Source: Kappaphycus alvarezii (lineage: Eukaryota; Rhodophyta; Florideophyceae; Gigartinales; Solieriaceae). Taken from it: DNA of 64,000 bases. The translations under genes were made by a program, and so were the position numbers. The notes under the pieces were generated by a model. The model was not told the DNA's origin. It did no database searches and saw only the letters and a program-made list of their open reading frames with translations. Location of the stretch: positions 1 to 64,000 of the forward strand of contig NADL03000612.1 of NCBI GenBank assembly GCA_002205965.3, read 5' to 3'. The stretch's first letter is position 1. The number at the start of each line of letters is the position of its first letter. Shown piece by piece: positions 2,106 to 57,060 of the stretch.

Positions 2106-2110
2106 ATTCC

Positions 2111-15945: not shown

Positions 15946-17210
15946 AGCACCGAAGTTATAAATCGATTCTCTCAGAAACAGTCACTTTAGGGAGGTCTTC
16001 CACCAGATTGTCTACCTTGTTCTAGGTGTTCCCGGATTTAAACCCCATAGGTGCAGAGCTCCATTGGTTAAAAATAGTTTAAGTGGTCAGCATAGTCTGT
16101 AACTTCCAGTTGCTTCGAGTAGAACTCTTTGAACCCCCTGAAGTTGCAAAAAATTCTCCTGGTCATCGCAATACCAAGAACTGCTGTAACCTCTCCAGAG
16201 TACAAGCTGTAGTTTGTAAAAGTCCGAAATTTGCACCGTTCGGAGCCTGATTTCTCATTAAGACAAACCATCTCGCCTAGGAGCCGACAATGTTATAGAT
16301 TTCGAGCTCAATTTCCAAAGCTTAAAACAGAGGTCTTGGGGGTTCTCTTCTCTTAAAATGCTCGAAATTCCTTATGCCATCAAGCACTACCATGCAATCG
16401 CTAGAGGTTCCTTCTTTGCACAAGAGTGTCATTTTGATGTCGCTGCGGTTGTTGCCTATTTTTTGCACACTCCCATGTGTCCGTTAGATAATCGCAGTGA
16501 CCATAGCACGTGTTGTCAAGAACAGGTAGTTCAAAGCTGCTGAAGACTCCTAGTTTCCCGCGGCGTAAAATATTCCAAGGCGTCTAGAATACTTTATCGA
16601 CCTTTAATTAGATATTCGCAAAAGACTATTTTCCAGCTCAGCAGTGACAGGGAGGAAAATTGTGGAAAGCGGTCAAGGTGCTAGGTCGGTCGGTACTTTC
16701 CGCCAGGGTAGGGGGAATACCGCTTGTTTTACCACAACCGAATCGTTTCGTAATTCAGACTACTGTACTGTACAGTACACGTAAATACAGTATGTACGCA
16801 GAACACAAGTGCTCTGCAGCCAAGAATTGCAGGTAGTACTGTACCACACCTAAAAAAATTAATTTAAAACTAGAAGCTTACAAAGTAAACGGCACAGTCG
16901 TCTACCGAAAAAAATCATCATAAATAGAGTAGCACTTTAGAGACCCCGTAATAATCAAGTTCCAACAGAAGTTCCAACAAATGGTACCAAGTTGGACTTG
17001 GCATTTTTGGACGTTCATGTTGTGCATCAGTGTACGGTTCTGGTATACTACTTGTACGGCTTGTACGCTAGAACTGTACTTTTCAGTGCGGTACTAGAGA
17101 AAGGCGCAGATCCGCTATCAATCGGTGGTCGCCGACCCTTGAGCATTAGTGCCGCGGGCGTCGGTTGATCAGACAATTACTTCCCGAATCCCAGCTCGTG
17201 CGTTTGATCC
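15946..17210 (+). promoter_or_regulatory. Intergenic region and promoter of the TOE1-like gene, with GTAC motifs
   Basis: No gene was recognised. Two GTAC motifs stand upstream of the next start codon: TACTGTACTGTACAGTACA at 16761-16779 and GTACTGTAC at 16836-16844, about 370-430 bp before the ATG. The stretch from 15946 to 16700 holds only short, unconvincing frames and is probably old transposon DNA. Confidence 0.5.
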
Positions 17211-18737
17211 ATGCCATCGCTACCCTCAAACCACGTGCGCTTCATCCAGATGACCACCCGGTCCTCTCTATCCTCTATTCATATTGTCAACGTCACAAGA
17301 AATGGCCATGAGCCGGGCTTTGGTTCTCTCCTTCAGTGTCTCGACAACCTTAACCCAGAGGCCTTCATCGCCATCGACACCGAATTTTCTGGCCTACCGA
17401 AGGATCCGGATCTAAGAGACCAGCACATACCTACACGGTACACTGCAATTCGACGTGCCGCCAATTCCCACGCAATTTTTTCAGTCGGCGTAGCGGTGTA
17501 CAATCCAGTCCATTCCGATACCGAATCCGGTGTCACTACTTATGAGGTCGCAACGTATGACTTTCTGACCTGCTGTGATGACGAGTTTACCATGAATGCA
17601 GACGCGGGGTCTTTCTTGGCAACTCATGATTTCGATTTCAAGAAAATGTTCAAAGTCGGTATCCGATATACAAGGGCGAGTACGGAAAAGAAAGATGACA
17701 AACAAAAACCTGATAGCGACGAATCTTCGAAACAGCATGAAGCTGCTGATGGCAAAAAAAAGTTGAAGGGGAGCAAAAGACAAAGTCGACAAGAAAAGGC
17801 GAATTCTAACATTCCCTTTCGATATGCAAGACTTCCGCGCGGATTACTGTGGCGAATGGGACGCAAAAACGTGCCGATAGTTCTGCACAACGGTATCTAT
17901 GATATTGTGTTCCTCTTCGCCGCATTTCAAGCCCCGTTGGCTGAAACACTGGATGGCTTCATTAGGCAACTCGCAGATACGGCACCAGCAGGTTTCTGGG
18001 ATACTAAAATATTGGCCGGTGTGGCAGAGGAGCGCGCATCGTTTCTGGAATATCTATTTACAAAAGCAATTTTAAGTGACAAGGTGAGTATCAGAAACAT
18101 GAAGGGCTTGCCCGCGAGTGAGTTTTCCGACCCCCCGGAGCCCTGTGAAGCTCTGCTTGGAAAGGAGACCTTATGTCCGTTGTATGCATTTCGAGGATTT
18201 TGCGTGAAGCATGCGTCATGTCCGTTTTCTCATGACCCTTTTGTCATAGCTGCCGAAGAGGAGAAGGGTACGATACCTAAAAGTAAGAATGAAGCATTCA
18301 ATGCTTTCAAGGCGGCTAAAAAGGACCTAAAGAGAAAGTTACGTGAATTGACACCCGATCTCAAAGGTCTTTCGAAAAAGCAGCGGAAGAAGGTCTTAAG
18401 CTCCGCGGGAATGCTTGTGGGAAAGGACATCAACGGAAAAAGTCCAACGGAAGACGTGGCAGTTGCAGATGAGGTAGGAACATGTACGACAGATGGAGAA
18501 GTCAGCGGAGAGAATAACGAAAGCAAAGTTCATACGGCAGGATGGGACGCGTTTTGCACGGGTTACGTGTTTGCTTCTTTACGAGACCAGCTACCAGGGG
18601 ACAAATTCGAGAGGGAGAAAAATAAGGTAGCATTGCTAACGCACAAACTAGGGGCGCTGTCGTTGCGCGAGAGTCAGTTTGCAAACTTGGACAATGTTGC
18701 TACCGAGAGTTTGCAGCCTGAGCCAAAAAGTTCATAG
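17211..18737 (+). CDS. TOE1-like CAF1-family 3' exoribonuclease with CCCH zinc finger
   Basis: This 508-residue single-exon protein resembles TOE1 (Caf1z), a nuclear DEDD exonuclease that trims poly(A) and snRNA 3' tails. Catalytic motifs seen are AIDTEFSGL (D56, E58), VLHNGIYDIVFLF (D231) and HTAGWDAFCTGYVF (H441, D446). Between the last two lies a zinc finger C322-x8-C331-x5-C337-x3-H341, placed inside the nuclease domain as in TOE1; PARN and CNOT7 lack it. Basic stretches near 182-194 and 370-395 could direct the protein to the nucleus. The ATG at 17211 is the first in frame; a second Met is residue 14. It converges with the bromodomain gene, with 198 bp between stops. GTAC motifs lie upstream at 16761-16844. 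Confidence 0.85.
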   Translation: MPSLPSNHVRFIQMTTRSSLSSIHIVNVTRNGHEPGFGSLLQCLDNLNPEAFIAIDTEFSGLPKDPDLRDQHIPTRYTAIRRAANSHAIFSVGVAVYNPVHSDTESGVTTYEVATYDFLTCCDDEFTMNADAGSFLATHDFDFKKMFKVGIRYTRASTEKKDDKQKPDSDESSKQHEAADGKKKLKGSKRQSRQEKANSNIPFRYARLPRGLLWRMGRKNVPIVLHNGIYDIVFLFAAFQAPLAETLDGFIRQLADTAPAGFWDTKILAGVAEERASFLEYLFTKAILSDKVSIRNMKGLPASEFSDPPEPCEALLGKETLCPLYAFRGFCVKHASCPFSHDPFVIAAEEEKGTIPKSKNEAFNAFKAAKKDLKRKLRELTPDLKGLSKKQRKKVLSSAGMLVGKDINGKSPTEDVAVADEVGTCTTDGEVSGENNESKVHTAGWDAFCTGYVFASLRDQLPGDKFEREKNKVALLTHKLGALSLRESQFANLDNVATESLQPEPKSS

Positions 18738-18935
18738 CGGTGATAAATGGTCATCGAGGATGATTCCAATGGCTGTTGGCAGTCATTTAAATCATTAAGC
18801 GCGCCGCAGTGTCCCGTCCAAGAATAAGTGCTACGGTTCAATGAATTTAACCTATGTATTATGTTCACCGCTGGTTTAGTGCTACTAAACAATCTGCGTT
18901 GGGTAAACGTCAATCTTGTGAACCGATACTTTCAG

Positions 18936-21752
18936 TTACAAAGGTTTCCCCACGATGCGCACAATTGTGAATGGCGTGAATGGACCGAATCTGACATTTT
19001 GCATGATCTCGCCTGAGCGCCTCATCCGAATGGTGTATGTGCAGGAATCGGGGTCGTGATCCATAACGTCAACGGGCAACCAAACCTTCTTTGACCCTTC
19101 TCTGGTGAAGACGATGACATCCTGACCAACCAAATGGCCGTCATTTTCCTTATTCTCTTTGGCCATTTCAGCCTGCCTCGCCGACATCTCTTTTGCAGAG
19201 TTTGGCGCTTCCACCCAGGATTTCCCTTCAGTGCTCCTGCCATAACTTTGCTCCCCCTCCTGCCTGTCACATTTCACAGGCTTTACATGACTCCTTCTCC
19301 TCTTGGGACGGCCGCCTACACCTCTTTGCAATCCCTCCTCTTCAAAAAGTATGTCCAATGAATTCACGCATTTTTCTGCATCCTTGACCACCGGATCATA
19401 GCTTCCGTTGAAATCTCGGCAATTTGACCAAATAAGATCAATATCTCGCAGTACATCCTCAACGCTATTATAATACCCATGCTCAGGTGTCGATGATTCA
19501 AGTCGCTCTGTTATAGTGAAAACATTCATCGGATTGGATATTTCGTTGTAATAATTTTCGCAACCCTCGTCGTTGGGATCCACTGGCAGCAGGAAAGGAT
19601 AGGCGTGCTGTTCCTTTGCTAATTCACGAAGAGCTCGCAGCACCCTCTGCTGATCTACGAAATCGTAAGATGAGTACACCTCCGCATCGCTCGAAGACGC
19701 TCGGGGTCGCTTTTTTGAGCGGTGTGACCCAACGCCATTCGATCGTTCATACCGTTTCGAGATCGACGGTACATCCATGTCTCGCGCCTGTCTCTGTTCT
19801 TTTTGAGTACCATTAGGCTTCGTCCCGGCTAGAGCAACAAACCCGTCTTTCTTGTTCGCGATACTATCCCTGTCACCCGTTGGCTCAGAGAGGAACTCAG
19901 AGCGATTTTTAGCATCACGAGGACGCAAAGCTAAGCGATGTGAATCCTTCACGTCGCTTGCGGGTCTAGAATTCTTGTCAGATGGCTTTCTCCTCCGCGC
20001 TCTGGGTAAGGGTTTACGGGCGAGTTTTTTTGCTGTTTCCAAGGCGCGCCTGCCACGTTTCCGCTCTCCTCTACCTGTAGTGGAGTAATTTTCATCTTTC
20101 CAGCCGCCGCGATTCCTGGACTTGCGGTGCGATACATCTTTAGCCTCGTCACGCATCCTCTGCGATGGCGGTTTTAGTCTGGGACTGTACTCCCGGGAGG
20201 AGTCAGATTTCGCGTCCCCGTATTCCTCCCCTTCGTCATAGCTTGGGTTTGAGACGGCTGGCGAAGCTGCTTCTTTGGTGCCGGATTCACCGCGACGAAT
20301 GTTCGGCTTGTCAACCTCTACTAGGCAGTTGATCTCCAATTTCCCACTTGATAAACCAGAAGTCGCGCTACGCTCATCTCCAAAACCCCACCAGTTGCGT
20401 GATGCCGGACGCCTCCAGGACGACAACGGCAACTCTGCCTCCATCGTTTCTCCTTCGGTCCTCCCAGCGTCGGTCTTGGATGTTTCCTCATCCTCCTCTT
20501 TCAACAGCGCAAACTCTGCGACGATGGGTTGAATACTTGTCCCATTCCGCTCATCTGCAGTAGAGCCAACGGCATGAGCAGGTCTCTCGGCAGCAACAAC
20601 AAGGTCCACAGGTGCATCCGTGGTCTTTTGCTCTGCACCGGTTCGTGGCGGAATTCCTGCTTCCTTTCGCGGACTAGGCTCCGGCAATAAAGCACCCGCC
20701 ACGACAGGGACATCGCTCGTTCCTGGACAAGGACGGTCCTCAACCGTCGCGCTTGCCGCTTCGCACGGCTCATCGTCACGACTCGCCTTACCCGTTCCCG
20801 GATCGCGCTTCTTGCCCTTCCCAGAACCCCCCGACACAGAAAATCCGCCTGTCAATCCATCGCTAGGCTTTTTTCCTTCAGGCTCCGCTGTCCGCGTTTG
20901 CTCGGTCTCACCTTCCAATTCAGACCCACGGTTTCCCAGCGACTGTCGCGCAGCTCCATTCACCCGCCCCTCACTTCTCGGTGCAAACACCTTTTCATGT
21001 GCTGCGATAGTCTGTGCGATCCGTTTCAATTCTGTTTTATGCGGACCAGCCGGAGGTTTTGCAGCAGACGGTGGAATCCTTCCAGGATGGGTGCGAGTGG
21101 TTGAGGATGGACGGGGTCGCTTGCTACTCGAGGGCAAAGGCGTTGCCCCTGTAACTTTCTCAGCTTCCCTGGGGGTATTCCTTGCAATGCGAGCATTTCC
21201 ACCAGCTGTTCCGCTGCCCCTATCTGAAGGGGCTGCTCTGGGCGGGGCGGTGAGCGCTGGAGTTGGATGGCGCACGAGCTTGCGTTCGCGCGGGCGGGGT
21301 TGGTTTGGTCGATTCATGGGCTTAATGATGTTTGCGAGGAATGCTTTCCGCTCCCTGGCTCTTACTTGATCGATATCTTCTTGCTTTTTCTGTGGTGTGG
21401 CTTGGCTTAACTTTTTCATTTCTGCATCAAACAAGGCTTTCATTTGCAATTGAGCCATGGCGGCTTCAATATCCTGGCGGATATCATGCTCCAATTCAGG
21501 TGTCAGGACTTGCTGTTTGGCAAGCGTGACGAGTGATTTGGGGTTGAGGTTTTCAGGGGAATCTGCAGGGGCTTTGTCGTTGAGATAGCTTGTAATATCT
21601 GTTTGAAGCTTGTCCATGCGACGGGTGTCACCAGTCATTCGGGCTTCAACAGCTTTGCGTATTCTGTCAATGGCCCCACTGCGGTTTAATTTGGTGAGTA
21701 ATTTCGCGACGGCAGCCTCTTGCTCCGGTGAGGTATTCGGGGAGTTGGTCAT
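18936..21752 (-). CDS. Bromodomain protein with Tudor-like C-terminus
   Basis: This is a large chromatin protein. The frame is open from 21887 (983 codons), but the Met at 21752 (MTNSPNTSPEQE) is followed at once by conserved-looking sequence, so I prefer that start (938 residues). The N-terminal 100 residues (KLLTKLNRSGAIDRIRKAVEARM and on) are helical and resemble the SHG1/BOD1 domain of COMPASS subunits; this is tentative. A long Ser/Pro/Lys/Glu-rich disordered middle follows. A bromodomain lies about residues 743-859 of the long form, with the YNEISNPMN segment and the acetyl-lysine Asn in CRDFNGSYDP. The last 63 residues (VIVFTREG, VWLPVDVMDHD, CTYTIRMR) look like a Tudor-type barrel. 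It probably reads acetylated histones in the nucleus. It is divergent from the Grx-MsrA gene. Confidence 0.8.
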   Translation of the reverse strand: MTNSPNTSPEQEAAVAKLLTKLNRSGAIDRIRKAVEARMTGDTRRMDKLQTDITSYLNDKAPADSPENLNPKSLVTLAKQQVLTPELEHDIRQDIEAAMAQLQMKALFDAEMKKLSQATPQKKQEDIDQVRARERKAFLANIIKPMNRPNQPRPRERKLVRHPTPALTAPPRAAPSDRGSGTAGGNARIARNTPREAEKVTGATPLPSSSKRPRPSSTTRTHPGRIPPSAAKPPAGPHKTELKRIAQTIAAHEKVFAPRSEGRVNGAARQSLGNRGSELEGETEQTRTAEPEGKKPSDGLTGGFSVSGGSGKGKKRDPGTGKASRDDEPCEAASATVEDRPCPGTSDVPVVAGALLPEPSPRKEAGIPPRTGAEQKTTDAPVDLVVAAERPAHAVGSTADERNGTSIQPIVAEFALLKEEDEETSKTDAGRTEGETMEAELPLSSWRRPASRNWWGFGDERSATSGLSSGKLEINCLVEVDKPNIRRGESGTKEAASPAVSNPSYDEGEEYGDAKSDSSREYSPRLKPPSQRMRDEAKDVSHRKSRNRGGWKDENYSTTGRGERKRGRRALETAKKLARKPLPRARRRKPSDKNSRPASDVKDSHRLALRPRDAKNRSEFLSEPTGDRDSIANKKDGFVALAGTKPNGTQKEQRQARDMDVPSISKRYERSNGVGSHRSKKRPRASSSDAEVYSSYDFVDQQRVLRALRELAKEQHAYPFLLPVDPNDEGCENYYNEISNPMNVFTITERLESSTPEHGYYNSVEDVLRDIDLIWSNCRDFNGSYDPVVKDAEKCVNSLDILFEEEGLQRGVGGRPKRRRSHVKPVKCDRQEGEQSYGRSTEGKSWVEAPNSAKEMSARQAEMAKENKENDGHLVGQDVIVFTREGSKKVWLPVDVMDHDPDSCTYTIRMRRSGEIMQNVRFGPFTPFTIVRIVGKPL

Positions 21753-23523
21753 GACGTTGAGAGATTGGATTGGTGGAAGGGGGGATAATTGCGCAGATCC
21801 GGGGGAGTGTGAGAATTGAAGCGTGGTAGTGTTGTGAGTGAGGGTAGGCCGACCTGGGTAGTTACAAAGCGAGGGGTTTGATTGCAAGAAGTGAAATGAA
21901 ATCGGAGGTAAAGTTGAAGATCAATTAATTAGAATAGGTGTGGAGGGAAATGAAGAGGGAATGGCGAGTGGATGAGTCAATGTGCGAGTGAGGATTGGCG
22001 GCGAAGGCATGAACAGGAACAGAAGGTCAGAGTAGCAAGGAAAATGTGAGGAGACGGTATTGGCCGTGCAAACTTCGAGTGAACGTAAACGGCAACTGCC
22101 TGCAAATCATTCGAAATGGGGCAAAAACCAAGGGTTTGTATTTGTATTAAAATTGATTTTTTTCAACAGCAGTGCAATTCAGGTCGAATTTGCGCCATTT
22201 GCAGGTATTTTGCTGAGATGAACCATAAAAAAATCATCACCTCACCCCGTGAAAGCAGACCGAAATTTTCGTTTGGACAACACTGTACTGTACAGTACAG
22301 TACAATACACCCTTCAGCAGCAAATTGCCGCGCGATTTTTCCAGTTTCTTGCAATCAAGTCGGTTTGGTGCGATTCGTGTATGTGAATAACAACTTATCA
22401 CCCAATGCCATGGCAGTGATTGAGTCGAAAGGCTCCCACCTGCGGTTTCGGTAAATAACTGGTACTTTGAACGAACCTCAAGCTGTGTCGCCGCCGTTAA
22501 CTTAAACGGGTGTTACCGGGGCGGATGTGGGATGGGATAGATATCAAAATTTCATGCATTGGGATTTAACATTCACGTCCGCAACTGGAATGCCCGAAGC
22601 GCACATTGAGACATGACAACGGGGCAACGGGGCAACGGGGCAACGGGGCGGCAAGAACTGCTTAGCTCTTCTTTTTTTCGTATTCCTCACTGATCCCAAT
22701 TGGGAAAAGTGGACGGGCGTCCTAACGATTCGTCAAGAGAAGCTGCATGAATCGCGTGACGCTTTGGCCATGTGAACAGCGTGTGTTGTGCCCGCAAGGC
22801 TTCTCACAATTAGCCTAGCTTTCTGTACCTGCATGGCTGATGTGGCAAGCCGACAGGGTAGGGTTTGACAAGTGCCGTGCAAAAGAAATGCACCAAAAGT
22901 GATTCTGCGGTGCTGGTCATTGCAGACGTTGTGTGCTTGAGATGAGAGTTGCGCCGCAAACGTTATGATCTGTACATGAGGTAAGAGAACGGGAGCCGTC
23001 CAGAAGCTTTGTATTTTGCATTTCATTTACAGTAATCGTCAAGTTTCTACGCTCGGTAAGGCAAGTACTGTGCTGACGGCCCAAATGAGTTAGTTACTGC
23101 CAGCAGTAACTAGCCTGTTTATTTCAATATTTGTAGCCCTTGTCATGTACAGTACTGTACTGTACCGTACATGCACAGGGTTTTGCCAGTCTCGAGTACC
23201 ACTCCAGCCCATCCCTCACGTTTCTCCCTCGTCAGCGTCCATGTGGCCGCGCAGGTCATGCCCTTTATCCACGTATAGACATAGATGTCCTTCACTGCAC
23301 GTGCTTAACATCACCCTACTTTCTCTGACGTTGCCTTGGGACAAGTTTCTTCCTCCGGCCTTACTACTTTTTTCAAAAAGTCCATGTCATTCAGACTTGC
23401 TCTGTTTATAAGTATCACCTGTCTCCTCGCAACTCTCTCCGCTCCTCAGGTCTGCCGTCAGGACATCTCCACATTCCATCAACATTCAACAACATTCTAT
23501 CCACAATTCCATACACCTTTACC
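21753..23523. promoter_or_regulatory. Divergent promoter region (bromodomain gene and Grx-MsrA gene)
   Basis: About 1.77 kb lies between two divergent genes and holds no convincing gene of its own. GTAC arrays stand at 22283-22304 (about 530 bp before the minus-strand start) and at 23144-23173 (about 350 bp before the plus-strand start). The second is almost a perfect palindrome bounded by CATGTAC and GTACATG. A four-repeat G-run tract lies at 22621-22648. The last 120 bp before 23524 is CT- and CA-rich, as expected for a 5' leader. Confidence 0.6.
22617..22648 (+). repeat. Four-copy CAACGGGG minisatellite, G-quadruplex motif
   Basis: Four GGGG runs (22621-24, 22629-32, 22637-40, 22645-48) are separated by identical CAAC spacers. 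This fits the G4 rule G(3+)N(1-7) four times over on the plus strand. It lies in the promoter region between two divergent genes. Confidence 0.85.
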
Positions 23524-25173
23524 ATGGGAAACAAGTACGCCAAAGCCTCCGCGGGTAGCTCTGCAAAGTCCCTCGTCGAAAACGCCATTGCCACTCATCC
23601 CGTTGTAATCTTCAGCAAGTCCTACTGCCCCTACTGCCACTCTGCCAAATCCGACATCCGCAATGCCGGCGCCTCCGTCGCCAATTTTGCACCACCCAAG
23701 GTTTTTGAACTCGACAACATGGGGGCCGAGGGTCGCGCCATCCAAGCTTATCTTGCTCAGCTCACTGGTCGTCGCACTGTCCCCAACGTCTTTATTGGTG
23801 GACGATCCGTCGGCGGCGGAGATGATATCGCAGGTTATGCCAGAAGAAATGTCCTCAAGCAGATGCTCACTCAGGCTCCTGACCGTCTCGCCGCAAACAA
23901 TCCCGGTCGTGCGGGGGGGAGCCAGCCGAAGGAGGAGGAGGAGAAGGAAAAGACGCCGAAGGAGTTGGTGGAGGAGGCTATTGCGAACCATCCTGTCGTG
24001 ATTTTCAGCAAGAGTTGGTGCCCGTATTGTCACTCGGCAAAGGCTAATATTGCAAACGTTGCGTCCCAAGTTGACGGCTTTCAAGGAGCCAAAGTCTTTG
24101 AGTTGGACCAGATGTATGCTGTTGGTGAGTCCATCCAATCCTATTTGATGGATAAGACGGGACGACGAACGGTTCCCAATGTTTTCATCGGCGGTGTTAC
24201 TGTGGGCGGCGGCGATGACGTGGCGGGGTTGGCAGCCCGTGGCGAGCTCAAGTCTTTGATCATGGATGCCGTAAAGGGAGACAGTGCTTCGGAAGAGCCA
24301 GTTGCATCCTCGGATAATCCAGCACAAACGTTCGTGGAGGAGGCTATTGAAGAGCATCCGGTCGTTGTTTTCAGCAAGTCATGGTGCCCATATTGCAAGG
24401 CAGTGAAGAGCACTCTGACCAAGGTGGGTGCTGAGGTATCCGGATACGAAAAGGCAAAGGTATTCGAGCTGGACACCATGGGTTCGTTAGGAGAAGATGT
24501 GCAACAGTATCTGGCGGACAAGACGGGACAGAGGACTGTCCCGAATGTGTTTATTGGTGGCAAGCATGTCGGGGGCAACGATACCGTGTCTGCGCATGCC
24601 GCTAGTGGCGACTTGCAGACCATGCTGGCTAGCGCGGTGGCAACCGCAGGTGCTGCCGATGTGAGCAAGCCTGCGCCAGCTACGAAAGAGATTGTGTTTG
24701 GCGCAGGCTGTTTTTGGGGAGTTGAACTCGCCTTCCAGAGGGTTGTTGGCGTGGTCAAGACCGAAGTTGGATACACCAACGGGAAAATTCCGCGAGTGAC
24801 CTATGAGGCAGTATGCTCGGGATTGACGGGCTCTGCGGAAGTTGTGCGTGTCACCTACGATCCGAATGTTGTTTCGTTGGCGGAGCTTCTTAAGATTTGG
24901 GAAAGCCGTCACGATCCGACATCTTTGAACAAACAAGGGAACGACGTTGGCACGCAGTACCGCAGCGGTGTTTATTACAATGACGAAGAGCAGGCTGCGG
25001 AGATTGCAGAGTGGAAAACGGATGCAGGCTCGCGTCTGTCGAAAGAGGTTGTGTCCGAAATTGCGCCAGTGAGTAATTACTGCACGGCTGAGGAGTACCA
25101 TCAGAGATACCTCGAGAAGAAGGGTCAAAGTGCGGCCAAAGGCGATACTACGCGTATTAGGTGCTATGGGTAA
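23524..25173 (+). CDS. Triple glutaredoxin-MsrA fusion (methionine sulfoxide reductase A)
   Basis: This single-exon protein of 549 residues has three glutaredoxin domains in a row, each with a CPYC active site (35-38, 166-169, 288-291) and the TVPNVFIGG glutathione-binding segment. An MsrA domain follows, with the catalytic GCFWG (395-399, Cys396), GTQYRSGVYY and YCTAEEYHQRYLEKKGQ. MsrA reduces methionine-S-sulfoxide and must be re-reduced; attached glutaredoxins would do this with glutathione. A Glu/Lys linker (137-147) joins Grx1 and Grx2. The N-terminus MGNKYAKAS has Gly2 but no Ser/Thr at position 6, so myristoylation is doubtful, and no plastid or mitochondrial leader is evident; a cytosolic place is likely. 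Grx-MsrA fusions are known to me from Gracilaria; three Grx units are more than I recall. Confidence 0.93.
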   Translation: MGNKYAKASAGSSAKSLVENAIATHPVVIFSKSYCPYCHSAKSDIRNAGASVANFAPPKVFELDNMGAEGRAIQAYLAQLTGRRTVPNVFIGGRSVGGGDDIAGYARRNVLKQMLTQAPDRLAANNPGRAGGSQPKEEEEKEKTPKELVEEAIANHPVVIFSKSWCPYCHSAKANIANVASQVDGFQGAKVFELDQMYAVGESIQSYLMDKTGRRTVPNVFIGGVTVGGGDDVAGLAARGELKSLIMDAVKGDSASEEPVASSDNPAQTFVEEAIEEHPVVVFSKSWCPYCKAVKSTLTKVGAEVSGYEKAKVFELDTMGSLGEDVQQYLADKTGQRTVPNVFIGGKHVGGNDTVSAHAASGDLQTMLASAVATAGAADVSKPAPATKEIVFGAGCFWGVELAFQRVVGVVKTEVGYTNGKIPRVTYEAVCSGLTGSAEVVRVTYDPNVVSLAELLKIWESRHDPTSLNKQGNDVGTQYRSGVYYNDEEQAAEIAEWKTDAGSRLSKEVVSEIAPVSNYCTAEEYHQRYLEKKGQSAAKGDTTRIRCYG

Positions 25174-45518: not shown

Positions 45519-48500
45519 ATGCGCGAGACACGTCTTTACGAATACGCCCCTTCCTTTACCGTCCAAGCCTTTCCGACCGTCGAGTTTGACTTTCCCACCC
45601 AACCCGCTCCCCACCCCACCCTCGCGGGCACATGGGCCGGACTCACTCATTTCACCATCTCCTGGCGAGTCGAGGACGCCTCTTCACTTATCTTCGAGCA
45701 ACTCACCTCTCACAAGGGCCTTCGCCTCACATTCTCCGCTCCCCTCACCTCCCGTCCTTTGATGAGACTCAACACCTCTGACACCCGCCACTCGCTTGAC
45801 ATTCTAGTCGCTTGTTATTCCAGGCAATCCGTCCTGCTTCGAATTCGTTTATATCCCCCGCATGCTCAGAACAACCATCGCTTTGAATGTATCCCAGTCG
45901 CACGCTGCATGGTCGAGCGTGCGTGTGTCACATGTATGACCGATATTGGCACCGAAGTCATTGTGGGATTTGACGATGGCGCATGTGCCCGTCTGTGTTT
46001 CACAGATCTCCCGTCTCCGGCCATTCAGGTCAACCGCTTTGAGCCGCGCGCCCCGGGTGCGTCGGAGCAACGTCGACAGGGAGATACCACCAGTATGGTA
46101 TCCGGTATGTCGGAGGATGATTCCAGTCATCGCTCCGTTGCATCCTCAATGTCGCTTGGTTTGATGAACCGCTTGTTTGGTACACAGAGGGCTCTTACTG
46201 CTTCTTTGGGTGCGGGCCCTGCAGAGGCTAATTCACATGCTGTTAGTGTGCCGCACGCGTTTTTGAGGAGGGGTAAAGAAGATAGGGCTAGTGGAAGGGA
46301 GAGTCGCGATTCGGTTTTGGGTTTGGCTTTGGTTAGGATGGAGGGGAAAGTGGTCGCCTCGTTGCATCAGAGTGGCAGGGTCTGTGTGTACATGGAGGTG
46401 GACCACCAGTTTCAGTTTCTGGCGGACCTTGACCTGCCGGTGAAGCTTGTCAATGGCTTGGTCAACCATTTTTTGCTCACTGGTCTCGCAGAGTCGGTTG
46501 TGGCCGTTGTTATGGTTGATGAGGATCCGAACGCCGATTCGCTCAGGTTGTTCAACGTTACCGCAAAGTGGCGTGGGGAACGCTCGATCTCCTTGGCTTC
46601 AACGCAGATTGCAAAGAGAGATGGTCCTATAGATCGTATCGTCGCCGCTTGTTTCACTGGAGATGATGTTATTGTCGCGTCTGAGACTGGATTCGTGTCG
46701 GGCGTACTGAACGTCTCGAATGAAATTGATTCGAATGTTGGCATTCCAACTGGTACTCTCTGGACAGCTCTGGAGGACGTTGATCAATCCTTTGGGCTCG
46801 GAAAGGCCTTAGACAGTGCCTCGCCAGACCCCGTGGACTCTTTCATGCAGGCTCACCGTTTCTCTGCGAAAACTGTAGCCAAAGCCTTGCGACTCGATGA
46901 TCCTGGGTCTTACACCCACGCCGACATCCAGCACAATGTCAGAAACACGGTTTTCGACAAGGACCCAGACAATATGTGGAGACGTGTTCGGGCGAGAGCG
47001 GAGCATATATGCAAATCTGAGGAATTGCTGGTTCGCGATTTATCTTTGGTCCCAGAAGTTGGGATTGTCGTCGCTCGAAATAATTCCTTGCATATTTTTC
47101 GAAAGCTCTTGGAGGCAGAAGAGAAGGCTATTGCCAACACCACCCGCCTTCTAAGCTGCAAGGAGCCGGTTTTAAATCTGGAGATAGCATGTCTACTCTC
47201 TTCACATGCGGCTTGTCAAGTGATCGCCTCGCAGTACATGGGGAATGGTGTTCCGAACGATGAGAAGAACCAACTCAAGTTTATGGTATTGCTAGCGGTT
47301 TCGTTCTCTCACGTTCTCACTGATATGCCCTTGAGCAATCGTGTAGCGCTAGTAACTTTGAGAGGGCTACGTGGCAATACACAGGTCGGCGATATGTTTT
47401 CGACCGCGGTTTCTCTAACGATGAGAACATTGAAACCGGGTCCACCACTGCTGTCTTTCTTGAACAAAGCATCTGAAATGCAGCAACTGCTTATGTCTAC
47501 GGATCAAGTTGGCGACAAGTTACCAATATCAGCTATGTTTGCTAGTGGATTGGCCTGGCTTTCTCAGTTTCGACAAAGTGGTTTCCATCAAGTAGCTAGT
47601 CCACGGCACTCGCCCGGGGAGGACAAGTCGAGGGGTGCCATTCTGCTCGTTGAAAAAGCCTATGCTTGTCTGGTCGGTTCAGCTAACTGGTGTGAGAAAC
47701 ATATTGAATTAGCCGAGGATGATGTACAGTGCGTTTTGGACCTGGCCGGATTGTCGGAGTATGATGCAGAAGCGGCCGAACAAGGTCGTGCGGATGATGT
47801 TGTCATGTCTGGGGAGGGAGAAGGTTTACCAAATGGTCTGACAAGGGAACAAATCCGGCAGCATCTTGGCTTTTGGTTGCTTGAGCGGTCTGTACGCCTC
47901 TTGGAGAGCAGCAATGCACCGCGGAATGCCGCGGCAGTAGCTCTTGAGGCAATGTCAAGAGCACCTGATCGGCAGCGTCATGAGATGATGAGAGCTGCTG
48001 CGTTCAGCACCTTTCTGGACGCGATGGAGTTGGAGCACGCGTTGACAGCGATTTTGCGGTTACCTTTCTCTTCAGAGGAGGCGCCTTTTGTGGTGAAAGA
48101 GGAGAGCGATGCGTTGAGGGATGCTATAGGTTTATTTGTTAACGTAGCAGCCGATCAAGGGAAACTGCAGTGGCTAGCTGATTACGAACTGCCGGAGCCT
48201 TTGCATGTCCTTTGTGGACTAGCTCTTGAAAGGAGAGCGAGGGCTGCTGATGCGATGCGGATCGAAGATCCATCTAGTGTGCAAGAGCTTCCTGCCAAAC
48301 CACCAGGGGCTATGGAGAAAAAAGCTTCAGACAAGGCAGCAAAGAGTGTTTGCGAGTATGAGCAGTTGTACGCTTGGTATGTTACGTGTGGGGATGAGTC
48401 AAGCGCTGCAACATGCGCGCTAGAGTGGAGTGAACGTCTAAGTCACGAGGGGCTCGCAGCAATTCGGAGCTTCGCGTCCGGTCGGGGTAGGCATCTAGAT

Positions 48501-49523
48501 GTGGAAGCGCAAATTTCTATACTGCTTTCGTGGACAAAATTGAAGTGCCAGGCGTTCTCGTATGCACTATCTGCTGCCCACTTAGAACCGCCCCAGAGAC
48601 GTTTTATTTTGAGGTCGCGATACGCAATCGTATCTGAATCACAGGCGAGTACGAAAGGAATCGTGAGCCTATCTTGGGCATCTCGACGCCACCTTTTGGC
48701 ATATGCGCAGAGCAAGGTGTTAGCTGAGTTGCGATCAGGTGGTGGGCAGGATCTTGACATTGAGGAGTTGGTGCCGTACTTGAGTTCTCCCCACTGCAAT
48801 TTGCTAGCCGATGGAAAGGAGGGAGTTGCTTGGATTACGTCAAGGTTGGCCAGAAACGCGACCTATGATAAGATGCTGCTGTGTGCAGAGTTGGGAAGTG
48901 CATGGAGGGAGGAAGCTGGCGACAGTGTGCTTGTGGAGGTAGTGCAAGCAGCTTCTTTCCTCGCGTCTCAAAGATCTGTCGATAAGTTCGGGTACAGCCA
49001 CTTGGACGACTTTCTGCGTGCTGTTGTTTCAACAGAAGGACAAAAGGAATGTTCCAAGAATTGGAATCTGGTAGCACTGGAGAGTGCATTATCAACAACA
49101 GGAGGGGCGGTTGGTGTGCCTCAGTGGCTTGTGGACGCCGCGGCGTGGGGAACACCAGCGTTTGCGGAGGGAACTGCGGAATATGCACGAAACTTTTCAG
49201 GGAGGAGAATGGGAGATGCGGCTGGAGTGGTTCGAACGCTGTTGAGGTATCATCGGCCCGTTGAGGCGGCAAAAGTGTTGTTGGTGGGGCTAGCAAGCGT
49301 TGACAAGGTGGCCAAGGAAAGGCGGGAAAAGGGACGTTACTATGTGCCCTACTCGGCGATTGATGCGACGGTGGAGTTGCTAGGGGAGGTGGAGGATGAA
49401 TACGAGGATGCGGAGAGGTACAAAAAGAAGCTGCAAGATAGCACGAGAGCGCATATGTCTGCAATGGACGAGGTAGTTCAAGCAAGTGTGGGCGGGGAGA
49501 GCATGGAAGTAATGGCAATGTAA
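45519..49523 (+). CDS. Nucleoporin of the Nup160/Nup120 family
   Basis: This single-exon protein has 1,334 residues, close to human Nup160 (about 1,430). The first 530 residues look like a beta-propeller: repeated short strands such as LALVRMEGKVVASLHQSGRV, AVVMVDEDPNADSLRLFNV and a closing VGIVVARNNSLHIFRKLLEA. The rest is an alpha-helical solenoid, with SVRLLESSNAPRNAAAVALE, a tyrosine-rich LYAWYVTCGDESSAATCALE segment (the Nup160 helical 'clasp' type), and a C-terminal VPYSAIDATVELLGEVEDEY. The YxxxD/IDxxxE ending and overall order fit Nup160, a member of the Y-complex of the nuclear pore. It could also be another propeller-solenoid coat protein. The 5' end is C-rich and the 3' half G-rich. 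GTAC clusters lie upstream. Confidence 0.6.
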   Translation: MRETRLYEYAPSFTVQAFPTVEFDFPTQPAPHPTLAGTWAGLTHFTISWRVEDASSLIFEQLTSHKGLRLTFSAPLTSRPLMRLNTSDTRHSLDILVACYSRQSVLLRIRLYPPHAQNNHRFECIPVARCMVERACVTCMTDIGTEVIVGFDDGACARLCFTDLPSPAIQVNRFEPRAPGASEQRRQGDTTSMVSGMSEDDSSHRSVASSMSLGLMNRLFGTQRALTASLGAGPAEANSHAVSVPHAFLRRGKEDRASGRESRDSVLGLALVRMEGKVVASLHQSGRVCVYMEVDHQFQFLADLDLPVKLVNGLVNHFLLTGLAESVVAVVMVDEDPNADSLRLFNVTAKWRGERSISLASTQIAKRDGPIDRIVAACFTGDDVIVASETGFVSGVLNVSNEIDSNVGIPTGTLWTALEDVDQSFGLGKALDSASPDPVDSFMQAHRFSAKTVAKALRLDDPGSYTHADIQHNVRNTVFDKDPDNMWRRVRARAEHICKSEELLVRDLSLVPEVGIVVARNNSLHIFRKLLEAEEKAIANTTRLLSCKEPVLNLEIACLLSSHAACQVIASQYMGNGVPNDEKNQLKFMVLLAVSFSHVLTDMPLSNRVALVTLRGLRGNTQVGDMFSTAVSLTMRTLKPGPPLLSFLNKASEMQQLLMSTDQVGDKLPISAMFASGLAWLSQFRQSGFHQVASPRHSPGEDKSRGAILLVEKAYACLVGSANWCEKHIELAEDDVQCVLDLAGLSEYDAEAAEQGRADDVVMSGEGEGLPNGLTREQIRQHLGFWLLERSVRLLESSNAPRNAAAVALEAMSRAPDRQRHEMMRAAAFSTFLDAMELEHALTAILRLPFSSEEAPFVVKEESDALRDAIGLFVNVAADQGKLQWLADYELPEPLHVLCGLALERRARAADAMRIEDPSSVQELPAKPPGAMEKKASDKAAKSVCEYEQLYAWYVTCGDESSAATCALEWSERLSHEGLAAIRSFASGRGRHLDVEAQISILLSWTKLKCQAFSYALSAAHLEPPQRRFILRSRYAIVSESQASTKGIVSLSWASRRHLLAYAQSKVLAELRSGGGQDLDIEELVPYLSSPHCNLLADGKEGVAWITSRLARNATYDKMLLCAELGSAWREEAGDSVLVEVVQAASFLASQRSVDKFGYSHLDDFLRAVVSTEGQKECSKNWNLVALESALSTTGGAVGVPQWLVDAAAWGTPAFAEGTAEYARNFSGRRMGDAAGVVRTLLRYHRPVEAAKVLLVGLASVDKVAKERREKGRYYVPYSAIDATVELLGEVEDEYEDAERYKKKLQDSTRAHMSAMDEVVQASVGGESMEVMAM

Positions 49524-49603
49524 AGGTGATGGTGTTTACTGATAAAACGGGACGACTTGACAATGTATTGATGGGGTGGAGGATGACGAGTAGAAAATTT
49601 GAG

Positions 49604-50099
49604 CTAGAGGTCACCAGTAGCTCGGCGAGCAGCAATACGAGCCTCGCGTTCCTCGGCGACTTTTGCTCGCTCAGCCATGACTTGAGCGATTTGTTGTCTT
49701 TTAGTTTCCTTGGCGCTGCAGAAGAGGGGCGTGTAGAAAGAAAATGAAATTGATGGTGAGGACATAGATGTGGGGTATGGAACTGGAGGGAGGGAATGTA
49801 AATGGGATAATCTTGCGAGTGAAAGGCGAGATGACTTACCCTTCGATTTGGCTACCGAGGTACGTACCGACGCCAAAGTAGACGAGGTGTTCCCAAGGTT
49901 CTTTTTCCGCGGACGCAAAGGGAGTTTCGAGTGGCTTGGAAATTTGAGTTAGCGATAGTTGGCGGCGGGGTTTGCAGGTCAATGTGGGGTGGTTTGGAAA
50001 GGTGGAATACGTACGACGCATGAGCGGGAGCTTTCGGGTTGCGTTGGAAAATATTGCGACGCCGAAGCCGACAAAACCGTAGAACAGGGCGTGGCCCAT
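49604..50099 (-). CDS. Three-exon gene for an 85-residue membrane protein
   Basis: Minus-strand exons are 50099-50015, 49900-49840 and 49715-49604. Introns of 114 nt (GTACGT...AAAAG) and 124 nt (GTAAGT...TGCAG) are in phases 1 and 2. The joined frame is exact (258 nt including the stop). The product starts MGHALFYGFVGFGVAIFSNA (one membrane helix), then RKLPLMRQPWEHLVYFGVGT with a second hydrophobic stretch ending YLGSQIEG, and a charged helical tail (KETKRQQIAQVMAERAKVAE to ATGDL). Two short hydrophobic stretches around a conserved-looking RxPWEH core resemble small inner-membrane subunits of mitochondrial complexes, but I cannot name it. It is divergent from the BAR-like gene, and it converges with the nucleoporin gene (80 bp apart). 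Confidence 0.65.
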
Positions 50100-50707
50100 T
50101 TTGGGAAGAGGAAGAGGTGGGAAGGGATGGAGGGTGAGGACCGGGGTGATTGGGGGTCAAGTTGGTGGTTGAATGGTTGGGAGGGAGGGGGCGGGATCAA
50201 TGTCGGTCGGTGAGGCATGTGGGAATGAGACCAGGCATTGTTTGGGTGCGGGATCGGGATGGGCGAGAAATTTGGAATAGTTCAACTTTGTGGGAAATAT
50301 ATTTTGAAAAAAATTGTAAAGTTTTCATGAAAAGTGGAAATATTAAATATGTACAGTACGGTCTGCGGGGATGCTTTTGTTCGGGTGCAGGGCGAAGGCA
50401 GAAAGCTGGTGATTTACGCAGTGCCCAACAAGAAAATTCAAGTGTCATTTGCTGATTGTGGCCTCGATGGTTAGGTCGATGGACACTTTTCAGCTGCAGT
50501 ACTGTACTGTAGTGTGTCAACTAGCCACTCTGCTGCTGTTTCGAAGGTCGTATGACACCAGCCACAAGTGGAACGTATCCAACGACTGTTACACGAGTGC
50601 TACGATACCCGCGCCCTATCACTCGGTTCTAGACCGCGTACCAGTCTGGCTTCTATTCGCCTTTTTTAACACCACCGCACGCAACGCCAACCACCCACGC
50701 ACAAATC
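50100..50707. promoter_or_regulatory. Divergent promoter of the 85-residue protein and the BAR-like gene
   Basis: GTACAGTAC at 50351-50359 and AGTACTGTACTGTA at 50498-50511, about 250 bp and 200 bp from the two start codons. No gene was seen between them. Confidence 0.6.
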
Positions 50708-51932
50708 ATGGAGGACGAACGGAAAGGAAAACCAAGCATGATGATCGGCGGCATGTATGCCAAAGCCAAGCAGCGCGTGCTTAACAGAATCGGCAAGCGA
50801 ACAAGTACGTTCATCTTTTCCACCTCCACCCCGCCGTCTCAGCCTTGTTCATGTCTACATTCAAAACCGTTCTGAGCTTTGCACTTGATTTCACTAACCT
50901 CCATCTTCATTCCTGTCATTTTACTGCAGCCTGACCCGAAATCCACGCGTCGACTTTATCTCAAAACGTGTCGAGGAAATAAAGGCAAAGAAGGCCCGCG
51001 TCACTCACCTTTCAAATGCCGCCCGTCATCACATGAAGCAAGCTGTCAAGAGTCTTACTGACCTTGATCGTATGATGCTTGATGCCTTTCGGGATGAGCT
51101 TGGTGAGCGTAAATGGAATGAGGAGAAGGGTACCTATTCTCGCGTTCTTCACACAGAGGAAAAACGTCTCGTTGCAGATATGGAGCGTGTGTTTTCTAGG
51201 TGTCGTGAGACTTTGGACAAGGTCGTGGATACCTATGTTGAACATCTGGATGATACCGCTGCAAAGCCCTTGACTTACAATACCCCGGACGAGTCTTCCA
51301 AATTGTCCAATGTCATGCAAACAAAGGAGGAATACAAACAAGTACGAACCACATACTCAGATGCCATGATCGACCTTGACGCAGAGTTGGGCACAGGCGG
51401 CAATGCAAGTTCCGCCTCTCAACAAAAGGTCGACGACGCGAAAAAGGCCTACGATGAAATGTCAGAGCGCTTGTGCGAAGATGCCCTAAAGTATGAACGC
51501 GTGTATCGCGAGGAGCTGGCGCAACGCGTGTCTGCACATTTCATGGCCGAACAGCATTTGCTTCGCGGTGTATCGTCCGCTATGAAGGATTTTATGCCGT
51601 ATACAAGAGGCCTCACCTTGGATTGGGAGGAACTGCGTAATACGAGACGCGCGAACCTCACCGCCGCAAAGGCGGCTAGAGATATGGACGATGAGGAGAT
51701 TGAATTGTCGGAACGGTTGGATAATTTGCCGATTGGGACTGAACAGGGGAACAGGGATGGTGTGCGGGCGAATAAGAGCTCGGGTTCCAACCCGTTTGCG
51801 GGTATTGCTAGCGATATCTCGGCAACTGCTAGCGCAGCGGGCAGTGCCATTGCTACTGCTGGCAAGTCGACTAGCAGGAGTGTCGCGGGGTTTGTGGCTA
51901 ATTACTCTGCAAAACCCTCGTCGAAGAGCTAG
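50708..51932 (+). CDS. BAR-like domain protein, two exons
   Basis: Exon 1 begins at ATG 50708 (MEDERKGKPSMMIGGMYAKA) and ends near 50804-50808. Exon 2 begins at 50930 after TTTTACTGCAG and runs to 51932. A donor at 50809 (GTTCAT) keeps the frame and gives 367 residues; the better-looking GTACGT donor at 50805 does not, so the exact site is uncertain. The central part is a long helical bundle (RVDFISKRVEEIKAKKARVT, LTDLDRMMLDAFRDELGERK, DDAKKAYDEMSERLCEDALK, AQRVSAHFMAEQHLLRGVSS), the pattern of amphiphysin/BAR domains that bend membranes. A low-complexity Ala/Ser tail follows (SDISATASAAGSAIATAGKS), with no SH3 domain. A role in endocytosis or trafficking is likely. GTAC motifs lie upstream. 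Confidence 0.6.
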
Positions 51933-53049
51933 TCGGAGGGGGTGCGTGGAGTGTGTTGTGGGGTGAGGCAGGCCTAGGATGTGCAAGCTAGAGTCGCAAG
52001 TGAGAATGTAGTGTACTGCTACCATTGTGAAAGACATTTAACATCCAATTAACATTGCTCGTCGTATGGGCGGACAATCTTTTTTCGTATTCCGGTGCTT
52101 TGTTGCAGCCTAGTCTCAGCTGATTAGCGGTGAGACGTCCGCCATAGAAGAACAGCGTTCTTTAACTTGCCAGGAGTGTTGTTTGATGCCATTCAAATAT
52201 CGTTTGAAACCAGTTCGGTACCCGTTCTGTACTTTAACCGTTTTCAAAGTCTCATAACCGGGTTCAGGACTGCAGTCTAGTCAGTTCTAACGTCGCAATC
52301 CACGCAGAGTTGTAAACCGAAGGAACAAGATAGGTAGCTTAGAGGTTTGGGGCTGTTCTCATTGGCTTTCATTGACAGCCAACAAACACCGGTGGTAAAG
52401 TGTCGAAACACAGCGTGGATGACACTCACAACGGCCTATGAACGCTGCGCACCGATGAATCTTTCGCACTTATGCAAAGTCTGGACATTGGAATTATAAT
52501 TCTTCACTGGATCTGAGGTAGTGGTATTAATATTCTTACCGGACAAGCTGCGAGCGCATCCTTGGACAGTAAAATATTTGCTTTGTATCTCACCATGGAT
52601 CAACGACAAGTGAGCAATAAATACGTGTTTGAACATTCATCTCCGCAATGTGTCGAGGACAAATGACGTCTCTGCTGTTGTTTGGCTCTCGTCACAAGCA
52701 GTTATATGAAAGGTGCTGGCGGAAGTCGTACAGGTAGAATCTTGTGCGACCTAGATTGCCCTGCGGCTTCCTAGTAACACTGCTGGCTTGTTAAGACTTT
52801 GGGCCGTTATAGTGTACAGTACAGTACAGTACTGTAGTTGTGTGACCGAACGGAATGACGATTCCGGCAAATAGACCTACTGCAAAATCCTATGACTACC
52901 TTACACTGTGATTGGCTGGGAAGTTGCTGCACATTGATTGCTAACCTTTGCAGCAACTGCATTGAGTTGGACGGCACTTCACCTGCCGCTTGCCGGCCAC
53001 TCGAATCGCTCGCAGATCAAACAAGGTACCATTCGATTAGCGGATCAAG
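51933..53049 (+). promoter_or_regulatory. Intergenic region with GTAC cluster upstream of the YqgF-like gene
   Basis: GTACAGTACAGTACAGTACT(GTA) stands at 52814-52836, about 215 bp before the ATG at 53050. The rest (51960-52800) holds no gene that I can support. Confidence 0.55.
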
Positions 53050-53601
53050 ATGAACTCTGGCGCCCGTCCATTAGCTCTTCGCTTATTCGACTTGACCAAA
53101 GGCGGTCGCAATTCACCTCACATACTCCCCTTTAAGAAAGCCTTGTCCGAATTTCCGGGTCCCATTCTTGGGCTTGACGTGGGCATCCGCCACATCGGAG
53201 TTTCCCTCTCTGACTCCCATCGTCTCGTTTCCTTTTCTCAGTGTGGATTTCAGAGGGCGACCATCCGGCAGGACATCGCCACCATTCGTAACGTTATCAA
53301 ACATACTCCAGTTCATGCCGCAATTGTGGGGATGCCTGGCGAGCAACCGGCCCCGATAATGGACAAATTACAGCAGTTTATTCGTGTGTATGTCCAGGGG
53401 ATTTTACCGGAGTGCGGTGTTGGGTTGGTAGGATTCTGGGACGAAACTTATTCCACAAGGATTGCAAAGGAGGCGTTCATGAGACGTACACGGAAGCGAT
53501 TAAGAAATCGTCTACATTATAGAAAACGAGCTGTTGATGCTGTATGTTGTTTCCGTTACATTGTTCACTCAGAGTTAAGTAGAAGAGTTGAATCTGACTG
53601 A
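53050..53601 (+). CDS. YqgF/RuvX-family Holliday-junction resolvase-like nuclease
   Basis: This single-exon protein has 183 residues. It has the RNase H-fold core of the YqgF family: GLDVGIRHIGVSLSD (first catalytic Asp), AAIVGMPGEQ, and GFWDETYSTRIAKEAF (the DE.xsT motif), ending with KRAVDAVCCFRYIVHSE, where VDA carries the last catalytic Asp. Bacterial RuvX/YqgF proteins act in 16S pre-rRNA processing or resolve junctions. In algae and plants such proteins are usually sent to plastid or mitochondrion. The first 40 residues here are rich in Arg, Leu and Ser with few acids (MNSGARPLALRLFDLTKGGR), so an organelle leader is plausible. The ATG at 53050 is the first in frame. A GTAC cluster lies 215 bp upstream. 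Confidence 0.8.
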   Translation: MNSGARPLALRLFDLTKGGRNSPHILPFKKALSEFPGPILGLDVGIRHIGVSLSDSHRLVSFSQCGFQRATIRQDIATIRNVIKHTPVHAAIVGMPGEQPAPIMDKLQQFIRVYVQGILPECGVGLVGFWDETYSTRIAKEAFMRRTRKRLRNRLHYRKRAVDAVCCFRYIVHSELSRRVESD

Positions 53602-55755: not shown

Positions 55756-56004
55756 AACGGAGGATGGACCCAACAAAGGAGCGGATCGAAAAATCCAAAA
55801 CGGTTGGGTCCAATCGGAAAGTCTCTGAAACGCAAGTCCTCAAGCGCTATACACCCATGACAGATGCAAACCTGACCTCCTCGGCTGCGATCACATGTAC
55901 CACCACAGATACTCAATCCTTTCTGATCCCTTTCCTCAAACGAGAAAGCAAGAGAGACCTTCTAATTATCGGCGCCCCTTTCACCTCCTCCTGCTTGCCT
56001 CAAC

Positions 56005-56589
56005 ATGACAAACGCTGCGACACAATCATCAATCGCATCCAAAGCAGCAACGAAGCAGACGCATGACACACGCGTTTTGTGTTCATTCTTGACGGCTTGG
56101 ATTTGTCAAATCACATCGAGGCGAAAATTGCTACCATTCTCTGCGTTTCGCAATGTGAACTTCAACGGAAGCACGGTGTCTGCTCTTCGTCGCCCGGGCG
56201 ACGGTTGCATTAATCTGAATCATCGCGGTCTTTACCATTGGTTACGTAATGATATACCGAGAGTGGTGCAACTGCACGACCGGCAAAAAGAAGCGATGAT
56301 AATGAATTTAGTGGTAAAGAAAGAGGGACATGTTGTAGAAGTTTATGAGATGAGATGTGTTGAAGGTGGAAAGGGGGATATGGAGAGTTTGAAAGGGGGA
56401 GTTACTTGTGTGCTGAGAGCGACGGATGTGTTTCTCATGACGATGGAAGAGCTGATAGAAGAGTTTATAATGGAGGTTGGGATGGGGGAGGTCAACATGC
56501 AGGATACTATGCGTCGTGTTGGGCTCGGATGCGTGAGAATGGAGGGATGGGATATCCAATGCTCGCTATGGATGATTGAGCGTTCGTGA
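56005..56589 (+). CDS. Hypothetical protein, 194 residues
   Basis: ATG at 56005 (MTNAATQSSIASKAATKQTH). The first 60 residues are Ser/Thr-, Arg- and Ala-rich, which could be a targeting leader, followed by a compact-looking region (VVKKEGHVVEVYEMRCVEGG, LRATDVFLMTMEELIEEFIM, GWDIQCSLWMIERS). No family was recognised. The coding strand is C/T-rich at the 5' end and G-rich at the 3' end, as in the firm host genes, which supports it being real. A GTAC motif (CAGTACAGTACCGTACA, 56636-56652) follows closely. Confidence 0.45.
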   Translation: MTNAATQSSIASKAATKQTHDTRVLCSFLTAWICQITSRRKLLPFSAFRNVNFNGSTVSALRRPGDGCINLNHRGLYHWLRNDIPRVVQLHDRQKEAMIMNLVVKKEGHVVEVYEMRCVEGGKGDMESLKGGVTCVLRATDVFLMTMEELIEEFIMEVGMGEVNMQDTMRRVGLGCVRMEGWDIQCSLWMIERS

Positions 56590-57060
56590 GACGGAGCAGC
56601 TCTAGTAACCCGGCACCAGTGCTGTCTTTGGGCGGCAGTACAGTACCGTACAGAGTGGCTATTTCGTACGTAAGAGTTTCTGTTGGACTTGTTGCACGTG
56701 GCATGGATTCTCGTAACATACTGTACGTAGTGAAGAATAAACGAACACTTTGGCACCAGAGAAGCGACAGGGACTTTCTTTAATCCCGCATATTTAGTGC
56801 GCGAAATTAAAATAGTACCACCCCTCATAAAAAATCCGTTCGAGGACAAAGACATGACCGTTCTCGCTAATCCGCACTTTCCGTGAGCCGCAATATCGAG
56901 CCATTTAAAGTGTATAAAGAGCTAAAGTAGTTGGCTTACGGAGTTAGCTGTTACAGATAACAGTAAAATTACAGGGACGAAATTAAAATAGCACCAGTAC
57001 TTTTCGACAGCCTTTATGTACAATGCAAAGTCCTCAAAGATATATAGGCGATCTGAACTA
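56590..57060. other. Intergenic, GTAC motifs and Tc1 end-like direct repeats
   Basis: GTAC motifs lie at 56636-56652 and 56719-56730. CGAAATTAAAATAG.ACCA occurs twice, at 56802-56820 and 56978-56996, 176 bp apart in the same direction. This is the IR/DR arrangement seen at the ends of some Tc1 elements, and would be the left end of the element that follows. Confidence 0.45.

Follow-up and report, generated by a model that had tools for sequence, protein, structure and literature searches.

Arrays of GTAC palindromes in five-base register lie upstream of genes in a 64-kb window of the red alga Kappaphycus alvarezii

In the first 64,000 nucleotides of contig NADL03000612.1 from Kappaphycus alvarezii (assembly GCA_002205965.3; hereafter the window), the palindrome GTAC is repeated at a period of 5 bp in short arrays that are strongly enriched over composition, are absent from the assigned coding DNA and lie upstream of nearly all assigned genes. 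Within these arrays conservation is confined to the GTAC phase of the repeat, from which we infer that they are bound by a protein. We consider it probable, at roughly 0.6, that the arrays are homotypic clustered sites for a putative general promoter-binding protein, which would serve genes at large rather than a single regulon and might influence their transcription.

Position of the arrays relative to genes

Both strands of the window were scanned for the element GTACNGTAC, using 100 dinucleotide-preserving shuffles as control. This comparison with shuffled sequence, put forward as a check in an initial annotation of the window, places the element far above composition: 31 sites were counted, whereas the shuffles averaged 0.38 (standard deviation 0.65, largest value 4). 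In a k-mer survey that omitted the second long terminal repeat (LTR) of a copia element and the second copy of a repeat termed D2, GTACAGTAC/GTACTGTAC was the top-ranked 9-mer of the window, with 26 occurrences over both strands compared to 0.5 (second-order) or 0.83 (third-order) expected, and GTAC-N1-GTAC was the top 4-mer pair among gaps of 0-8 (60 counted, 2.16 expected). The second LTR copy was likewise left out of the coding counts, position tests and flank and context counts. Merging sites within 50 bp of each other, with one LTR omitted, yielded 16 independent clusters.

None of the 30 sites that remain without the second LTR copy falls into the 20,370 bp of assigned coding DNA, a minimum set beyond which further unrecognised genes may exist; the chance of finding none of the 16 clusters there is 0.002. 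The earlier claim that coding regions are free of sites is thus true for the assigned regions. Isolated GTACs, by comparison, are hardly biased, their density being 3.14 per kb in coding DNA (64 occurrences) and 3.39 per kb elsewhere (148 occurrences), while the TACWGTA core away from arrays also avoids coding DNA (19 outside, none within). An even spread of the element over coding and non-coding DNA, the pattern that the initial annotation had named as speaking against its idea, was not seen.

For 11 of the 12 assigned gene starts, the centre of an array is located at most 600 bp upstream, at distances of 164-542 bp that differ slightly from the 150-530 bp originally given for nearly every start codon. 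Random placement of the clusters in non-coding DNA gave 2.4 such genes for the whole window and 3.4 for the region 16.5-57 kb, and 11 genes were reached in 0 of 5000 trials. The strictest control, confined to the non-coding DNA of the two gene blocks, resulted in a mean of 6.8 genes (p = 0.0028 at 600 bp); counted by clusters, 12 of 12 were upstream, compared to 71% of the pool (p = 0.017 at 600 bp). At a limit of 700 bp, the gene-block control gave p = 0.0098 for genes and p = 0.046 for clusters. Upstream placement is firm when measured against transposon-rich or unassigned DNA and moderate against the other intergenic DNA of the gene blocks. The proposed association of the motif with the 5' side of host genes is therefore supported for this window, with a preference that is moderate, not strong, within gene blocks.

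All GTAC sites named in the initial annotation are present, their starts shifted by 0-4 bases (16765/16770, 16836, 22285-22295, 23147-23162, 26967, 28513-28598, 45140, 45271-45286, 50351, 50499, 52814-52824), and six sites at five places extend its list (2582, 8172, 56638 with 56643, 58870 and 62032). The arrays are listed below, with spacer bases in brackets; distances run from the array centre to the start codon and, for assigned genes, refer to the nearest array.

2536..2663, GTAC cluster with one GTACTGTAC at 2582, in one copia LTR
8125..8253, GTAC cluster with GTACTGTAC at 8172, in the other LTR of the copia element
16765..16778, array of 3 units (T, A), 5' of the TOE1/CAF1 gene
16836..16844, pair, 371 bp before the TOE1/CAF1 ATG
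22285..22303, array of 4 units (T, A, A), 542 bp before the bromodomain gene
23147..23170, array of 5 units (A, T, T, C), 366 bp before Grx-MsrA
26967..26981, pair plus a third GTAC at 6 bp, common to the divergent carrier (389 bp) and psbW (437 bp) genes
28513..28543, array of 3 units (T, T) followed by a C-spaced pair, in the interval separating the divergent psbQ-like (164 bp) and kinase genes
28598..28606, pair, between the divergent psbQ-like and kinase (536 bp) genes
45140..45148, pair, 5' of Nup160
45271..45294, array of 5 units (T, A, A, C), 237 bp before Nup160
50351..50359, pair, 256 bp before the 87-aa open reading frame (ORF), in the divergent interval with the 299-aa ORF
50499..50507, pair, 530 bp before the 299-aa ORF, in the divergent interval with the 87-aa ORF
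52814..52832, array of 4 units (A, A, A), 227 bp before YqgF/RuvX
56638..56651, array of 3 units (A, C; sites 56638 and 56643), without an assigned downstream gene
58870..58878, pair, without an assigned downstream gene
62032..62040, pair, 587 bp before an unsupported 125-aa ORF, without a supported gene

The gene models combine open frames with family searches; they are our own assignments, some of them weak, and unsupported long ORFs, such as 55207-55755, were not included in the list.

17211..18737, + strand, CAF1-family ribonuclease (TOE1 in the initial annotation), Pfam E 2.9e-47
18936..21752, - strand, bromodomain protein, Pfam E 1.1e-16
23524..25173, + strand, triple glutaredoxin-MsrA fusion (Grx-MsrA), Pfam and further family search
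25503..26582, - strand, mitochondrial carrier, Pfam E 2.8e-49
27408..27641, + strand, psbW, 5' end possibly incomplete; Pfam E 0.00016 (below cut-off), PDB search matching PsbW chains at a best E of 8.4e-22
27807..28364, - strand, PsbQ-like protein, weak, alternative start 28451; NCBIfam PsbQ E 0.0034 and Pfam PsbQ E 0.13, both below cut-off
29138..30553, + strand, protein kinase, Pfam E 1.1e-47
45519..49523, + strand, Nup160-like protein, Pfam E 6.7e-07, above cut-off
49836..50099, - strand, 87-aa ORF, taken as the 85-residue protein of the initial annotation, no family match
51033..51932, + strand, 299-aa ORF (initially BAR), weak talin-rod match below cut-off, nothing else
53050..53601, + strand, YqgF/RuvX-like protein, Pfam E 2.9e-14
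56005, HORMA-like ORF, weak, Pfam below cut-off

According to their Pfam and PDB matches, the array-bearing genes are functionally mixed. The clear match to PsbW and the long frames lacking introns agree with a red-algal source, and would also suit other lineages with a plastid of the red line. The fusion gene consists of one 549-aa frame (23524-25173) that joins three glutaredoxin domains to peptide methionine sulfoxide reductase A; neither for its protein nor for one copia frame were relatives confirmed in viral contigs. Compared with PDB, the PsbQ-like frame returned no PsbQ chain; its single match, to a protein of another kind, is at chance level (E 0.88). Leaders with C over G precede most start codons, their estimated lengths of 75-996 bp being too vague for placing transcription starts.

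Several points weigh against a general upstream role. The exception among the 12 starts, the HORMA-like ORF at 56005, has its nearest array just past its stop, and the unsupported 182-aa ORF 55207-55755 has no array within 600 bp upstream. Among the 16 clusters, 12 lie upstream of an assigned gene, one is in an LTR and three are without an assigned gene. Considering that 71% of the gene-block non-coding DNA is already within 600 bp upstream of a start, the preference is modest; moreover, the 600-bp limit was picked after the distances had been seen, and at 400 bp the gene-block control is not significant (p = 0.15 for genes, 0.16 for clusters). The distance between array and start codon varies threefold, and the evidence spans one 64-kb window and our own gene list, weak models included.

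Placement between genes could also reflect an origin, an insulator or a chromatin-boundary element instead of a promoter element. Arrays are indeed shared by three divergent gene pairs (26967; 28513-28606; 50351/50499), and clustered palindromes would suit a boundary protein. However, TOE1, Nup160 and YqgF each possess arrays of their own, and none were found in the four short convergent intervals 18737-18936, 25173-25503, 27641-27807 and 49523-49836, albeit these amount to only about 1 kb in total. We regard such a role as unlikely.

Five-base-pair register and the plain-repeat alternative

The unit of the arrays is the GTAC palindrome at a 5-bp period. Among 261 GTACs, 30 pairs are spaced by 5 bp, where 1.06 were expected; spacings of 10 bp and 15 bp are represented by 15 and 11 pairs, those of 4 bp and 6 bp by two each; each of the 15 other four-base palindromes forms 0-4 pairs at 5-bp spacing. 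Over all 31 sites the spacer base is A in 13, T in 14, C in four and G in none, and the outer flanks look like a fading unit, with A in 21/34, G in 17/34 and T in 16/34 cases at positions 1-3 (both edges of 17 arrays pooled). Where a C spacer is present in arrays of at least three units (23147-23170, 45271-45294, 56638-56651), it is the rightmost one; together with the absence of G spacers on the + strand, this could indicate array polarity. Two of these three arrays face a gene to their right, a number too small for a reading.

An exact period of 5 bp is also what a pentanucleotide microsatellite would display, here of the ACAGT class, grown by replication slippage and functionless in non-coding DNA. 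The window holds 11 runs with a perfect period of 5, of which eight belong to this class, spacers are uniform in two of the seven arrays of at least three units (28513, 52814), and non-triplet repeats are usually non-coding. Slipped repeats, however, would keep all five phases alike, yet the GTAC phase alone is conserved. When the pattern XXXXnXXXXnXXXX was counted over all 4-mers, GTAC scored 13 and every other 4-mer at most 3, indicating that GTAC is constrained and the fifth base free; for XXXXnXXXX the count was 31 for GTAC and at most 14 for the others. Moreover, five of the seven arrays of at least three units have mixed spacers, including both five-unit arrays (ATTC, TAAC). Neither the equal conservation of five phases nor the uniform unit of a microsatellite is thus found in the GTAC arrays, and we consider an origin by slippage quite unlikely.

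Five-unit arrays from a prokaryote collection, described as holding 84,980 species and 257 Gb, and from viral contigs served as background control only. They occur in 50 stretches of the collection and in 11 stretches of the viral contigs, the latter also containing 23 stretches with four-unit GTACW arrays. Spacers are uniform in 42 of 51 prokaryote arrays of at least five units, and in 5 of 12 from viral contigs. Mixed arrays of at least three units make up 5/7 in the window, compared to 24/85 at all fetched loci (Fisher p = 0.03), the latter having been fetched by pattern, so that ascertainment differs. In six viral contigs (L003, L004, L009, L010, L013, L016) a (GTACW) array is followed by the common context GTTACNNGCGCCGT or its reverse complement, and several uniform GTACN repeats are found in Spirochaetaceae metagenome-assembled genomes of three bins (L030, L034, L058, L066, L069, L071, L072). 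Four of the 23 viral stretches with four-unit arrays (L002, L005, L006, L015) were not used as relatives, their ORFs looking phage-like by eye (no family search).

Spread as a transposon-borne repeat was rejected too. With 300-bp flanks included, and overlapping neighbours aside, matches between clusters extend over at most 42 bp and cover the arrays themselves; since the flanks outside the arrays are unrelated, transposon-mediated spread can be dismissed. Alternatively, the recurrence of TpA steps at 5-bp intervals, incompatible with the 10-bp rotational preference of nucleosomes, might act through DNA shape or by excluding nucleosomes, with no dedicated protein. Other TpA palindromes lack the 5-bp pattern, however (TTAA 4 pairs, TATA 0, CTAG 0), and shape alone would not require the outer G and C, so that we hold this explanation to be highly improbable.

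A putative promoter factor and the copia element

For a general promoter-binding protein, a mechanism can be proposed as follows. A sequence-specific protein would bind GTAC in its double-stranded form and prefer units that are separated by A or T; that these two bases serve as spacers about equally often appears to favour recognition of DNA over RNA. Neighbouring sites would be half a helical turn apart: at 10.5 bp per turn, adjacent units should be rotated by about 171 degrees, placing alternate units on nearly the same face. They could be occupied by a dimer, an oligomer or cooperating monomers on alternate helix faces, and independent monomers would fit as well. Recognition of GTAC as the unit is supported by the phase-specific conservation, but the dimeric DNA-binding protein suggested in the initial annotation is just one among several compatible arrangements. 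The protein may serve as a general promoter factor or clear nucleosomes, at single and divergent promoters alike. As would be anticipated for sites of such a factor, the arrays in this window occur upstream of most genes and not in coding DNA, with the upstream preference being moderate against the gene-block control.

One independent case is provided by a mobile element. Positions 2109-8412 hold a young copia-type LTR retrotransposon on the - strand, the coding region of which is broken over several frames; gag, integrase and reverse-transcriptase pieces were recognised on this strand by Pfam. Its LTRs are 715 bp long and 99.2% identical, and each contains one GTACTGTAC and, in a stretch of about 130 bp, additional GTACs spaced by 4, 6 and 9 bp; the two copies were counted as one. 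LTRs carry promoters, and the GTAC cluster in the LTR fits the promoter reading. Dependence on the host factor may be the reason why the element bears the site. Extending this reasoning, one can ask whether promoters of this lineage share a near-universal code in which GTAC palindromes overlap at half-turn spacing, whether its reader is a general factor with a DNA-binding domain of a new type, forming oligomers along both helix faces, and whether the lineage's LTR retrotransposons have adopted this code; we put this forward tentatively, as a possible but doubtful extension.

The region 40730-44203 is an LTR-like element. Its two direct repeats, each about 275-280 bp long, share 99% identity and are 3194 bp apart; an 860-aa open frame that has no Pfam match begins within the first of them. 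Within 35948-40175 there are a weak hAT transposase piece (- strand, below cut-off) and a DDE_Tnp_4 transposase piece (+ strand, Pfam), both in the array-free stretch 28.6-45.1 kb.

Comparison with known GTAC readers and promoter factors

In green algae, GTAC is known to be read by SBP-domain factors, and the copper-response element of Chlamydomonas is built on a GTAC core, as the title of Kropat et al. (2005) has it. Considering this shared core, the arrays could be sites for an SBP-domain factor like Chlamydomonas CRR1, that is, copper-response elements or a relative of these, an idea that the initial annotation had itself doubted. The SBP consensus TNCGTACAA has a C before the core, a context that array units do not favour: CGTAC/GTACG is seen in 8/47 of them and in 77/224 of the other GTACs, opposite to the consensus. 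Nor do the array-bearing genes constitute a copper set. CRR1 and SPL7 sites likewise place a GTAC core in promoters of photosynthetic eukaryotes, but the arrays described here differ from them in their 5-bp tandem register, in having A or T instead of C before GTAC, and in their functionally mixed genes. As to the factor itself, the portions of PMC4827209 available to us treat SBP as green-lineage specific and include a table with zero SBP genes in six of seven algal columns and 23 in the last, those of PMC3880041 count it among the families absent in red algae, so that it is reported absent from the red algae covered in both, and the available main text of PMC8304369, on red-algal factor families, is without any mention of it. 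While the GTAC core speaks for the SBP reading, the missing C context and the reported absence of SBP from red algae disfavour it, making it the least probable of those considered.

A GTAC core alone names no factor family, because Plasmodium AP2-G also reads one; its site, GxGTACNC, is present in eight copies in its own upstream region (PMC6631176, in part). AP2-G is regulon-specific, and the part of that description available to us mentions no array in 5-bp register. AP2-EREBP is among the families given as absent in red algae in the portion of PMC3880041 referred to above. If true, a general factor reading the GTAC arrays would reveal the organisation of general promoters in a lineage reported, in that same portion, to be without several green-lineage factor families. 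Should the motif precede nearly every gene, it would allow direct promoter prediction, the design of expression constructs and fishing out of the binding factor. Among the literature matches listed, judged by titles and abstract beginnings, there was no description of a motif common to promoters across red-algal genes.

In their geometry, the arrays resemble heat-shock elements, in which nGAAn units of alternating orientation follow each other in a contiguous 5-bp register and are read by an oligomer. The register is the same, but the units here are each palindromic and have a different core. In their distribution, they resemble the sites of general regulatory factors such as yeast Reb1, Abf1 and Rap1 or fly M1BP and DREF, for which one motif likewise occurs before many unrelated genes, divergent promoters included. 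Unlike these sites, the GTAC arrays have another sequence and are composed of overlapping homotypic units.

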